DNA of 64,000 nucleotides from Chitinophagaceae bacterium (lineage in GTDB: Bacteria > Bacteroidota > Bacteroidia > Chitinophagales > Chitinophagaceae): the NCBI GenBank assembly GCA_019752045.1, contig JAIEMP010000005.1, positions 186,001 to 250,000 on the forward strand, read 5' to 3'. The notes below the pieces were generated by a model, which saw nothing but the letters and a program-made list of their open reading frames with translations, had not been told where the DNA came from and made no database searches. This document shows, one piece after another, positions 1 through 36,768 of this stretch. Numbering within the stretch: the stretch's first letter is position 1; each line of letters begins with the position of its first letter. The translations under genes and the position numbers were made by a program.

Positions 1-750
1 CATACCTACAATGGATACCCCATGGTAAAACAGGCAAAACAATTTTTAAAAAGCGGTGCATTGGGTAAGATCCGTAAAGTGTATGTAGAGTATCCGCAAG
101 GATGGTTGAGTACGTTCTTAGAAAAAACCGGACAGGCACAAGCAAGCTGGCGTACCGATCCAAAGAAAAGTGGTAAAGCAGGAAGCATGGGCGATATAGG
201 AACACATGCGTTCAACTTAGCCGAATATGTAACGGGTTTACAGGTTACACATCTTTGCGCAGATATTAATATTGTTGTAGAAGGAAGAATGCTGGATGAT
301 GATGGAGCTGCATTTTTAAAATTCAACAATGGAGCAACAGGTGTGCTCATGGCAACACAAATTGCAGCGGGTGAAGAAAACAATGTAAAGATTCGGGTGT
401 ATGGAGAAAAAGGTGGTATTGAATGGAAGCATGAAGATGCAAATACATTGCTTGTAAAATGGCTCGATAAGCCTACTGAAATTTACAGAACAGGTGGAGG
501 TTACAACAGTTCGTTTGCAGCTCATAACACAAGAACACCTGCAGGTCATCCCGAAGGATTTTTAGAAGCGTTTGCCAATCTCTATCGCAATTTTGTATTA
601 ACCGTTCGTGCAAAAATAGATGGGGAACAACCCAAAGAAGAATGGCTCGATTTCCCGGGAGTAAACGAAGGAGTACGTGGAATGGCGTTTGTAAATAATG
701 TGATTGAGAGTGGAGAGAGTGAAGTGAAGTGGAAAGAGTTTACGGTGTAG
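1..750 (+). CDS. Gfo/Idh/MocA-family oxidoreductase, 5' end cut by window
   Basis: This is the C-terminal two thirds of an NAD(P)-dependent sugar oxidoreductase. The frame is open from base 1, reading HTYNGYP before the first ATG at 22, and this matches the interior of the family, so the ATG at 22 is not the start. The substrate-domain segment MGDIGTHAFNLAEY carries the expected H. The protein ends at 750 with TAG. It is followed by a TIM-barrel isomerase gene, with a GxxExxY cassette wedged between them. That pairing is common in Bacteroidota sugar or 3-keto-glycoside catabolic clusters (family knowledge). The substrate is not readable from the sequence. Confidence 0.85.
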   Translation, partial: HTYNGYPMVKQAKQFLKSGALGKIRKVYVEYPQGWLSTFLEKTGQAQASWRTDPKKSGKAGSMGDIGTHAFNLAEYVTGLQVTHLCADINIVVEGRMLDDDGAAFLKFNNGATGVLMATQIAAGEENNVKIRVYGEKGGIEWKHEDANTLLVKWLDKPTEIYRTGGGYNSSFAAHNTRTPAGHPEGFLEAFANLYRNFVLTVRAKIDGEQPKEEWLDFPGVNEGVRGMAFVNNVIESGESEVKWKEFTV

Positions 751-754
751 AGGT

Positions 755-787
755 TTGGCACACAGAGGCACAGAGGGCACAGAGAAG
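755..787 (+). repeat. left inverted repeat of the GxxExxY cassette
   Basis: Positions 758-775 read GCACACAGAGGCACAGAG, and the exact reverse complement lies at 1261-1278. The arm is built of 9-nt units GGCACAGAG (767-775 and 776-784), with a related unit before them that carries an extra CA. It starts five bases after the oxidoreductase stop. Confidence 0.9.
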
Positions 788-877
788 AAAGAAAATGAAG
801 TGTGAACTTTTCTATTGTAATAAGAATAGTTGATCAACGTATCCATGAGTGTTCTGTATAAACAAATACAAATGACG

Positions 878-1249
878 ATGGGGCTTAATGAAATCACCGG
901 GATTATTATAGAAGAGTCCATTTCTATACACAGGGAACTTGGGCCAGGTTTAATGGAATCAGTATATGAAGAAGCATTGTATGTTTGTTTAATAGAAAGA
1001 GGTCTAAATGTTGAACGACAGGTTGCAATTCCGGTTTATCTTAAAGGAAAAAAACTGGAAGTTGGTTTCAGAGCAGATTTGATTGTTGAAGGGTTGGTTA
1101 TTATTGAATTGAAATCTACAGAAGTTGTTGCCCCTGTTCATTATAAAAAATTATTAACCTATTTGAAATTATCATCTTTGCCGGTTGGATTAGTGATAAA
1201 TTTTTATGTCGATCTTTTAAAAAATGGAATTAAACGAATTGCCAATTAA
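878..1249 (+). CDS. GxxExxY family protein, PD-(D/E)XK nuclease-like
   Basis: A small protein of about 123 residues. It has the family signature GLMESVYEEAL (the GxxExxY motif) after a HRELGPG segment, then a D-x(n)-ExK nuclease-like core in FRADLIVEGLVIIELKS. The family begins near NEITG, so I prefer the ATG at 878 (MGLNEITG). ATGs at 872, 845 and 830 are in frame. The gene lies inside inverted repeats (758-775 and 1261-1278) between two genes that otherwise look like one operon. The fold assignment rests on the motif and on family knowledge. The biological role of these proteins is not established. Confidence 0.85.
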   Translation: MGLNEITGIIIEESISIHRELGPGLMESVYEEALYVCLIERGLNVERQVAIPVYLKGKKLEVGFRADLIVEGLVIIELKSTEVVAPVHYKKLLTYLKLSSLPVGLVINFYVDLLKNGIKRIAN

Positions 1250-1250
1250 A

Positions 1251-1281
1251 ACTCAGTGAGCTCTGTGCCTCTGTGTGCAAA
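1251..1281 (-). repeat. right inverted repeat of the GxxExxY cassette
   Basis: Positions 1261-1278 are the exact reverse complement of 758-775. Outside that 18-bp core the third 9-nt unit is degenerate (1251-1260). The next gene's ATG is 13 bases further on. Confidence 0.9.
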
Positions 1282-1291
1282 TACATTTTAA

Positions 1292-2347
1292 ATGAAAACA
1301 ATTAAAGGACCAGCTATCTTCTTAGCACAATTCATGGGCGATGCAGCACCCTTCAACAGTCTTGACAGCATCTGCCAATGGGCTGCATCACTTGGTTTTA
1401 CTGCCATACAGATTCCTACATGGGAAAAACGATTGATTGATTTAAAACTCGCAGCAGAAAGTAAAACCTATGCAGATGAGTTAAAAGGAAAGATCAACAG
1501 TTACGGATTGCACATTTCTGAACTGAGTACACACCTGCAGGGACAGCTTGTTGCGGTACATCCGGCATACGATACCATGTTCGATAATTTTGCAGCAGAG
1601 GAAGTAAAGAACAATCCTAAAGCACGTCAGCAATGGGCGGTACAGCAGGTGATGTATGGCGCAAAGGCATCGCAGAATTTAGGATTAACAGCACATGCTA
1701 CTTTCAGCGGTTCGTTATTGTGGCATACATTTCATCCATGGCCGCAACGGCCCGATGGGTTGGTAGACGAAGGTTTTAAAGAACTCGCAAAACGTTGGTT
1801 GCCTATTCTCAATTACTTTGACGAATGTGGTGTGGATGTTTGTTACGAAATACATCCCGGCGAAGATTTGTTTGATGGAATTACGTATGAAATGTTTTTA
1901 GAAAAAGTAAACAACCATCCTCGTGCATGTTTGCTTTACGATCCATCGCATTTTGTGTTGCAGCAGCTTGATTATTTGCAGTACATTGATTTTTATCACG
2001 AACGCATCAAAGCATTTCATGTAAAAGATTCTGAGTTTAATGCAACAGGAAAACAAGGAACATTTGGTGGTTATCAAAGTTGGATTAACAGAGCCGGCCG
2101 TTACCGCAGTCCGGGAGACGGGCAGGTAGATTTTAAAACCATTTTCAGTAAGCTCACCCAATATGGTTATGATGGCTGGGCAGTAATGGAATGGGAGTGT
2201 TGCATCAAGCATCCTGAAGATGGCGCAAGAGAAGGAGCGGAGTTTATTAAAAACCACATCATTCGTGTAACAGATAAAACATTCGATGATTTTGCAGGAG
2301 GAGCCACTGATACAATAACCAACAGAAAAATTTTAGGACTCGATTAA
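1292..2347 (+). CDS. sugar phosphate isomerase/epimerase (xylose isomerase-like TIM barrel)
   Basis: A 351-residue AP-endonuclease-2/xylose-isomerase-like TIM barrel. Metal-site signatures are visible: VCYEIHPGED (Glu/His), LLYDPSHFVLQ (Asp-x-x-His), KAFHVKDSEF (His-x-x-Asp) and WAVMEWEC (Glu). There is no signal peptide, so it should be cytosolic. It probably isomerises or epimerises a sugar or keto-sugar together with the upstream oxidoreductase. The original gap between the two genes would be only about a dozen bases without the intervening GxxExxY cassette. The substrate is unknown. Confidence 0.88.
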   Translation: MKTIKGPAIFLAQFMGDAAPFNSLDSICQWAASLGFTAIQIPTWEKRLIDLKLAAESKTYADELKGKINSYGLHISELSTHLQGQLVAVHPAYDTMFDNFAAEEVKNNPKARQQWAVQQVMYGAKASQNLGLTAHATFSGSLLWHTFHPWPQRPDGLVDEGFKELAKRWLPILNYFDECGVDVCYEIHPGEDLFDGITYEMFLEKVNNHPRACLLYDPSHFVLQQLDYLQYIDFYHERIKAFHVKDSEFNATGKQGTFGGYQSWINRAGRYRSPGDGQVDFKTIFSKLTQYGYDGWAVMEWECCIKHPEDGAREGAEFIKNHIIRVTDKTFDDFAGGATDTITNRKILGLD

Positions 2348-36670: not shown

Positions 36671-36768
36671 CGTCAGACGCCCTCGCCGGACGAATTTGTT
36701 GAAGTGTATGTTTTAATAATACTGTGAACATACAGTAAGTGTCCCGTCCGACGAGGGCGTCTGACGGG
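36671..36768. repeat. nested inverted repeats upstream of the trans-sulfuration gene
   Basis: The outer arms 36671-36692 and 36745-36766 match at 21 of 22 positions in inverted orientation. Inside them GTATGTT/AACATAC (36706-36712, 36727-36733) and TACTGT-N6-ACAGTA (36720-36737) can form alternative hairpins. The right arm sits in a CCCGTC...GACGGG element also found at 38731-38757. Confidence 0.7.

Follow-up and report, generated by a model that had tools for sequence, protein, structure and literature searches.

The question raised by this locus is whether a small nuclease-like gene, lodged between two metabolic-type genes and bounded by inverted repeats, is a mobile cassette. At the start of the window (the whole stretch of 64,000 nucleotides that was analysed) a run of genes lies on the same strand, in the order oxidoreductase, GxxExxY gene, xylose-isomerase-like gene, followed by more. 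The features of the locus are as follows.

22..750, plus strand: Gfo/Idh/MocA oxidoreductase, C-terminal part; upstream neighbour, the gene probably running past the window start
755..784, plus strand: left arm, TTGGCACACAGAGGCACAGAGGGCACAGAG, of tandem (G)GCACAGAG-type units, with a perfect core at 758-775
830..1249, plus strand: GxxExxY protein gene (PF13366 PDDEXK_3 / TIGR04256), 139 aa from TTG 830, alternative start ATG 845
1076..1114, plus strand: catalytic-type core D-x9-E-x-K (D codon 1076-1078, E codon 1106-1108, K codon 1112-1114)
1252..1281, minus strand: right arm, inverted copy, 87% over 30 nt, with a perfect core at 1261-1278
1292..2347, plus strand: xylose-isomerase-like TIM barrel protein (AP_endonuc_2 family), downstream neighbour

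A preliminary description of this DNA had proposed a minimal cassette with perfect 18-nt inverted arms, and a direct sequence check bore the arms out: GCACACAGAGGCACAGAG at 758-775 returns as its exact reverse complement at 1261-1278. This is the sole perfect 18-nt inverted repeat within 600 nt in the 64-kb window, and none was obtained in 100 first-order Markov random windows. With mismatches allowed, the arms extended to 755-784 and 1252-1281 (30 nt, 87% complementary) and topped the inverted-repeat list for the window. The 9-nt units claimed for the arms were found as well, GGCACAGAG being present at 767-775, at 776-784 and on the minus strand at 1261-1269 (3 matches, 0.21 expected). The perfect arms end 13 nt ahead of the next ATG (1292), as had been stated; their start, formerly placed five bases after the upstream stop (TAG, 748-750), is to be corrected to 7 nt for the perfect arm and 4 nt for the imperfect one. 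The PF13366 gene is the only content of the cassette, and the absence of a transposase between the arms was confirmed.

The enclosed gene had been called GxxExxY with a D-x(n)-ExK core, and both points hold. The protein matched the TIGR04256 GxxExxY profile (E 6.2e-38, 129.7 bits, cut-off 35) and the PF13366 PDDEXK_3 profile (E 1.5e-36, 125.7 bits, cut-off 22), the latter being its sole Pfam match at E ≤ 0.001. The core G-x-G-x2-E-x2-Y, D63 and E73-x-K75, numbered from nt 890, was invariant in 14 divergent members and in the 60 sequences of a structure alignment that took in 59 of 80 cross-phyla loci. Among relatives, E-x-K was retained in 132 of 136 copies; its absence from L305 is accounted for by the choice of region, which removed 113 nt of the match. 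An AlphaFold2 model was obtained with a mean pLDDT of 94.6 and a pTM of 0.87. Its best structural match in the PDB was 4ic1 SSO0001 (Z 9.4, rmsd 3.9, 99 aligned), which we take to be a Cas4-family protein, followed by the restriction-endonuclease-like 3ijm (Z 8.3, rmsd 3.1, 97 aligned). BamHI (Z 7.6) and the archaeal Hjc resolvase (6.8) were weaker matches, in the range under about 8 where the score may reflect merely a common arrangement. Foldseek gave no match below E 0.001 (best 1.5e-3), and phmmer detected no sequence relative in the PDB at E ≤ 10. The window protein is predicted to adopt a PD-(D/E)XK fold with the D...E-x-K core in place.

Familiar roles and carriers were considered for this family and rejected. 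The PADLOC models assigned the protein to no anti-phage defence family at E ≤ 1, so it was not taken as a known defence gene. A phage origin was discarded, as the gene was found in no phage record, was confirmed in no viral contig and had a best PHROG match of E 0.1, and plasmid carriage was discarded with 5 occurrences in 72,556 plasmid records, all five annotated as non-mobilizable. The GxxExxY/PDDEXK_3 name appears in a virus gene table in PMC12085832 and beside a reverse transcriptase in PMC8934634, and one of the family names is contained in PMC9756366. The literature search covered open-access full text; among the papers listed there, it returned no function for GxxExxY and no description of arms or mobility.

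In order to compare the flanks of other copies, an arm score was obtained by local alignment of the 250 nt before each gene with the reverse complement of the 250 nt after it. The threshold, a score of at least 28, was set after inspecting the control distribution, and a few scores at 28-31 look AT-rich and chance-like (L020/L230). The source genome (4.16 Mb) carries nine GxxExxY genes, six of which reached the threshold; by eye, most of the nine have inverted arms of their own, made of short purine-rich units that vary between copies. A PF13366 search of 59 relatives' genomes gave 144 matches in 43 genomes. Eight short or split pieces were left out (one in G053, two in G040:C172, one in G005:C54, and second pieces in G004, in G032 and twice in G008), leaving 136 loci, of which 134 were usable; L304 and L305 represent one cassette, found on two contigs in a genome flagged as 9% contaminated, and are counted twice in the 134. 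Inverted arms were detected at 89 of these 134 loci, against 46 of 1340 cross-paired flanks and 3 of 129 far flanks taken 500-750 nt out at the same loci. When one locus per flank cluster was counted, arms were present at 45 of 72. In the 89 armed loci both arms lie at most 250 nt from the nuclease domain, too close for a transposase gene to fit between them.

The family is widespread: of 296 genomes sampled in the window's phylum, 151 carry GxxExxY genes, and the family extends to many other phyla. At the best-scoring 29 phylum-wide loci, which are not a random sample, arms were found at 19 (cross-paired control 88/812). At least L262 (= L087) and, judged by arms, L230 (= L020) belong both to the genome-contig set and to that of the relatives. 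A scan across phyla, limited to a single genome for each species, retained 80 loci; of the 76 that could be used, 59 had arms, with far flanks at 2/66 and cross-paired flanks at 70/754; outside Bacteroidota, 34 of 45 loci had arms. The set includes Bacteroidota, Verrucomicrobiota, Planctomycetes, Cyanobacteria, Acidobacteria, Cloacimonadota, Marinimicrobia, Proteobacteria and others, and two Marinimicrobia loci scored below the threshold. By eye, the commonest arms in this set consist of a tandem C-R-C-N-R-A-G-like unit with 1-2 spacer bases, such as TCACGCAGAGGCGCAGAGGC in Nostoc. On these sequence comparisons, inverted arms around GxxExxY genes are the rule and not a curiosity. Other members of the family, among relatives and across phyla alike, thus have inverted arms as proposed; the arm sequence is not common to all copies, each protein subfamily having its own units.

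The window junction was compared in a same-genus set of 14 genomes, the genus being very probably Lacibacter. The isomerase is present in nine, and only G000 has the cassette, in line with the proposal of a discrete unit, which is missing from this junction in the other 8 of the 9. The junction is a short spacer, with no element or arm-like sequence by eye, in G007, G001 and G003. In G012, G013, G011, G010 and G004 a gene-less palindrome, ACCCTCTAAATCTCCCTAAAGGG...CCCCTTTAGGGGTTGGGGT or close to it, was found; this type resembles the arms around the genus's DUF559 genes. G009 gave no isomerase match, and behind the same oxidoreductase it carries a GxxExxY cassette, 57% identical, beside a CGCAGAG-type full palindrome. 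This cassette (L295) has the oxidoreductase and a cytochrome-c-like gene as its immediate neighbours and, with the full palindrome ahead of the nuclease gene, three arms. No target-site duplication was evident by eye in the empty-site comparisons, in which the flanks have diverged.

Exchange of whole cassettes was observed at other junctions. The L003 junction was followed in eleven genomes: five (G000, G001, G002, G009 and G011, the G009 copy being stop-broken) carry the GCCGGGAAG cassette with GCCGGGAAGACGG arms, and two (G007 and G013) carry a TCTGAACC-armed cassette. The swapped proteins are 29% identical at lowest, and the nearest homologues of both are in other genera at 72-77%. At the same place G012 carries a palindrome without a gene, similar to the DUF559 type, and in G008 there is a spacer in which no arm was recognised. 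G003 and G010 lack a cassette, and their downstream gene starts with ATGGTTCAGAC, identical to the TCTGAACC arm end, as in G007 and G013. This suggests an arm remnant, or scar, in the cassette-less genomes, in which case the downstream gene would at one time have received a new start codon from the element. In L363, L367, L368 and L369 the TCTGAACC arm end (GGTTCAGAC) forms the start and first codons of the downstream gene (MVQTLGEL). The L004 cluster, compared by flanks and arms in seven genomes, holds three arm/protein types with a lowest identity of 37%. At the L005 junction, twelve genomes gave a long match: three have one GxxExxY type (one stop-broken), three another type, two carry 23S_rRNA_IVP within arms of the GTTATGA type, another has a lone palindrome, and one is empty; G003 has another ORF with no Pfam match and a single arm, and G005 was not interpretable. 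The two GxxExxY types at L005 are 53% identical at lowest and share the same nearest outside protein, so a swap is less certain here than at L003 and L004. The G003 ORF (L153, 155 aa, hydrophobic by eye) follows a single CGCTAAG arm and is possibly another cargo or a decayed cassette. Taken as genomic comparisons, these junctions demonstrate gene and arms present, absent or swapped as one unit at recurrent orthologous sites, and the cassette looks like an overlooked small mobile element that has no known transposase.

Palindromes of the same types also occur without a gene. With up to 2 mismatches tolerated, the 15-nt core of the window arm was located 25 times in the genome, counting the cassette itself, and the reversed pattern 4 times; several of the 25 form short gene-less stem-loops. 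In the 59 genomes, the TCTGAACC type (pattern GTCTGAACNNNGATT) gave 249 matches against 8 in the reversed-pattern control, and the GCCGGGAAG type (pattern GCCGGNAAGNCGGNAAG) gave 73 against 1. The earlier picture of a minimal lone cassette is therefore right as to the discrete unit and wrong as to its being alone, as the genome has nine such genes together with gene-less palindromes. Lone palindromes were found at unrelated sites. Four of them in G017, about 140 nt each, have arms and loop in common, and their homology stops at, or a few bases from, TGTCTGAACC...GGTTCAGACA. Three lone palindromes were predicted to form ssDNA hairpins much more stable than those of their shuffles, with z values of -5.1, -11.7 and -5.1. 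Gene-bearing copies, compared in 261 within-genome pairs, reached a top identity of 73% (L304/L305 ignored). It would appear from these sequences that gene-less palindromes multiply within genomes and that gene-bearing copies rarely duplicate there.

Some lone copies deserve separate mention. The apparently identical lone palindromes L311 and L312 (G033) were rejected as evidence of transposition, as they belong to a segmental duplication of ~600 nt. Two TCTGAACC-type lone palindromes lie within ~7 nt of tRNA genes: L323 (about 300-385) near a tRNA-Lys (219-293, minus strand), and L324 (about 300-380) just past a tRNA-Gly (224-297). In the window itself, positions 36671-36766 contain a 22-nt, 95% inverted repeat, CGTCAGACGCCCTCGCCGGACG, whose right arm has two more copies in L060 on C11 (one exact, one near), which points to another dispersed repeat.

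The reading that we favour, and consider probable, is that of a mobile palindrome cassette whose nuclease recognises the arms and spreads it. The mobility of gene and arms follows from the comparison of genomes; the role of the nuclease is inferred. The element would consist of two inverted arms of tandem 8-9-nt units and the single nuclease gene between them. The GxxExxY protein would bind the repeated units of its own arms, perhaps with one subunit or dimer per unit, and would cut the foot of the palindrome when this is extruded as an ssDNA hairpin or cruciform. The cut would set off copying of the palindrome, together with the gene or alone, into new positions near stop codons. Gene-bearing cassettes would then be the autonomous members and gene-less palindromes their dependants, as is the case of RAYT for REPINs, and the gene could be lost or exchanged when flanking palindrome copies recombine.

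Homing at fixed junctions is the main rival, and both mechanisms may operate; as the chief explanation we regard it as rather unlikely. The nuclease would here cut a palindrome or arm-like site at the junction, the cassette being copied in by repair from a donor chromosome. Spread would occur mainly between genomes, and the gene-less palindromes would be empty targets or recombination remnants. Such a process agrees with the reuse of few junctions (the 68 loci of the genus form 21 flank clusters, and the same junction may hold different cassettes) and with the lack of near-identical gene duplicates within genomes among the pairs compared. It also agrees with a second layout of the family. Direct-orientation flank scores of at least 28 were obtained at 26 of 134 loci (cross-paired control 24/1340), at 18 of them in addition to inverted arms and at 8 instead of them, with inverted arms only at 71 loci. 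At the six loci with the longest direct repeats, L102, L032, L072, L023, L274 and L101 (scores 148-244), the gene stands between two whole palindromes of about 100-160 nt each, in direct repeat. A gene in a single loop, as first described, is thus not the sole layout, and recombination between two direct palindrome copies would leave a lone palindrome. In G009 the full palindrome ahead of the gene looks as if the gene had entered a palindrome and duplicated it. Against homing, swapped cassettes bring different arms, so that the target need not share the donor's arm sequence; the lone palindromes at unrelated sites call for insertion at new places; and three orthologues of the window junction have no arm-like sequence by eye.

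It is less likely still, and in our view improbable, that the nuclease gene is a passenger or host gene. The palindromes would then be spread by other machinery, such as replication slippage or another nuclease, and the GxxExxY, four-helix-bundle and DUF559 genes would ride in them for host functions, for instance cruciform processing. Three unrelated families do share the architecture and some junctions. The source genome has 16 matches to the four-helix-bundle family 23S_rRNA_IVP (L124-L139, one under the Pfam cut-off), and inverted arms of 7-8-nt tandem units were found at 13 of the 16 with a score of at least 28 (cross-paired control 1/240). Arms were present at 20 of 29 DUF559 loci in the genus (cross-paired control 84/812); this control and that of the phylum-wide GxxExxY loci (88/812) are high because arms are alike between loci. 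The nuclease gene, described earlier as the only gene of the cassette, is thus not the only cargo of this architecture, in which these two small-gene families also occur. A DUF559 gene in ACCCCCTAAATCCCCCT-type inverted arms (L333, C4:183067-183381 of the source genome) lies about 2.6 kb left of the window. Four-helix-bundle genes are listed in a table of phage elements in PMC5524665.

A passenger role would also suit the copies that have no detectable arms, about a third of GxxExxY genes (45 of 134 in relatives were below the arm threshold within 250 nt of the gene), some of which are conserved at one locus. Relatives that keep the gene at the locus without arms had been named beforehand as an observation that would count against a cassette. 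At another locus, the L009 cluster, the gene is kept in six genomes with arms at threshold in one and none detectable in five, so the arms are not indispensable to every copy. No arms were detected at L002 and L026 either. Internal stops, found in 10 of 136 copies, fit a passenger as well.

The behaviour of the arms argues against a passenger, since it is the protein subfamily, and not the host genome, that the arm sequence follows when genomes are compared. The GNGFQEVIYQRAL protein subfamily has TCTGAACC..GATT-like arms and the EIVDCAYKVHKQLGPGLLEKIYEACF subfamily GCCGGGAAGACGG arms. Among 72 loci with arms at a score of at least 26, pairs sharing flanks being excluded, arm and protein similarity were correlated over 2479 non-orthologous pairs (Spearman/Mantel 0.41), a value reached in 0 of 2000 permutations. 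Arms were shared in none of 58 same-genome pairs with proteins less than 45% identical and in 14% of 307 different-genome pairs with proteins at least 50% identical. The other 86% of the 307 had no shared arms at the threshold, which makes the co-variation a trend and not a strict rule. As such a trend, the arm type follows the nuclease rather than the host genome, as far as the sequences compared indicate. Gene-less dependants are, moreover, commoner alongside the cognate gene: both arm patterns were enriched in genomes with the cognate subfamily (Mann-Whitney p 8e-4 for TCTGAACC and 5e-4 for GCCGGGAAG), in a test that counts related genomes as independent and whose subfamily regex also took in L085 and L076 of another subfamily; outside the genus the values were 3.5e-3 and 0.058. 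Individual genomes depart from this pattern: G018 has 17 TCTGAACC-type matches and no PF13366 gene, several Lacibacter genomes have arm-type matches and no cognate gene, and some genomes with the subfamily have no matches.

The position of the cassettes was examined with regard to transcription. Measured from the stop of the co-oriented upstream ORF, the left arm begins at a median distance of 4 nt (56 of 81 within -20..+30). A preference for operons was rejected, the flanks being on the same strand at 33 of 45 independent loci and at 1323 of 1779 random placements in the window. The sole orientation bias is the direction of the cassette gene within co-directional gene pairs: it points along the pair at 28 independent loci and the opposite way at 5. 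A terminator or promoter role of the arms was rejected as well, as nothing at 600-1400 rose above shuffles. Mismatches in the stems, read on the coding strand, showed no bias between G-U and A-C (176 vs 179 in relatives, 106 vs 123 across phyla). RNA-level pairing was for this reason rejected as the selected feature; the result speaks against selection on one RNA strand and for recognition at the DNA level. That the element acts in RNA like a 23S rRNA intervening sequence, its arms forming a transcript stem for processing or insulation in operons, is accordingly very improbable: the reading direction, the closeness to the upstream stop codon and the layout common to 23S_rRNA_IVP genes would suit it, and the even stem mismatches, the lack of an Rfam match in eight loci searched (with none at the gathering threshold in L006) and of any terminator-like site at 600-1400 oppose it.

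The nuclease-driven cassette can be placed in a wider proposal, which is put forward tentatively, as possible rather than probable. There would be a new class of transposase-free mobile DNA, in which palindromes composed of tandem recognition units are mobilised by the stand-alone PD-(D/E)XK nuclease that recognises those units, in about ten phyla as judged from the record titles of the armed loci, and 23S_rRNA_IVP and DUF559 would be two further independent drivers competing for the same stop-codon junctions. If the arms are the substrate of GxxExxY, many unexplained purine-rich palindromic repeats gain a driver. If the proposal is true, REP-type palindrome spreading has evolved more than once, with unrelated enzymes, and the paired nuclease and arm families constitute a natural enzyme series differing in DNA-unit specificity. 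The 23S_rRNA_IVP genes in the same layout are also relevant to the question of how 23S rRNA intervening sequences arose.

Several known systems resemble the cassette in part. Like MITEs and classical insertion sequences, GxxExxY cassettes have terminal inverted repeats and dispersed gene-less copies; unlike them, they hold no transposase gene, and the gene copies compared within single genomes included no near-identical ones. By eye, no target-site duplication was seen in the flanks, which are diverged. I-Ssp6803I is a PD-(D/E)XK homing endonuclease, and such enzymes share with the window protein the nuclease superfamily and a selfish-looking cassette. The GxxExxY gene, in contrast, is intergenic, with no Rfam intron family at the gathering threshold in L006, and its arms are inverted repeats.

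Intervening sequences of 23S rRNA have terminal inverted repeats that form a stem, and a single small ORF lies in its loop (PMC4990558). The inverted-repeat stem and single small ORF are alike, and the IVP genes of the source genome share the palindrome layout. The window element, however, lies between oxidoreductase and isomerase genes and not within a 23S rRNA gene, and its ORF is of a nuclease family (PF13366) instead of the S23/IVP four-helix bundle.

REP-RAYT systems also resemble the cassette in layout, as described in PMC3733652: a RAYT gene flanked by palindromic repeats or other terminal inverted repeats, with gene-less palindromes dispersed near gene 3' ends (REP). GxxExxY cassettes have both the flanked gene and the dispersed gene-less repeats. 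REPtrons do not self-propagate according to the same source, and the non-multiplying gene copies beside multiplying gene-less ones recall REPtrons and REPs. TnpA-REP enzyme and repeat are stated to co-evolve in PMC8266576. RAYT, however, is a HUH-superfamily tyrosine transposase, whereas the window protein is of the predicted PD-(D/E)XK type, with PF13366 alone in Pfam. The window-type arms are tandem 8-9-nt units that vary by subfamily, and the inspected arm ends (TTTGGCACACAGAG, TGTCTGAACC, GCCGGGAAG) bear no GTAG/CGTC tag. By the features tested, the cassette is not a REP-RAYT system, an intervening sequence or an insertion sequence; we group it with the systems of a palindrome plus a dedicated enzyme, the putative enzyme here being an unrelated one.
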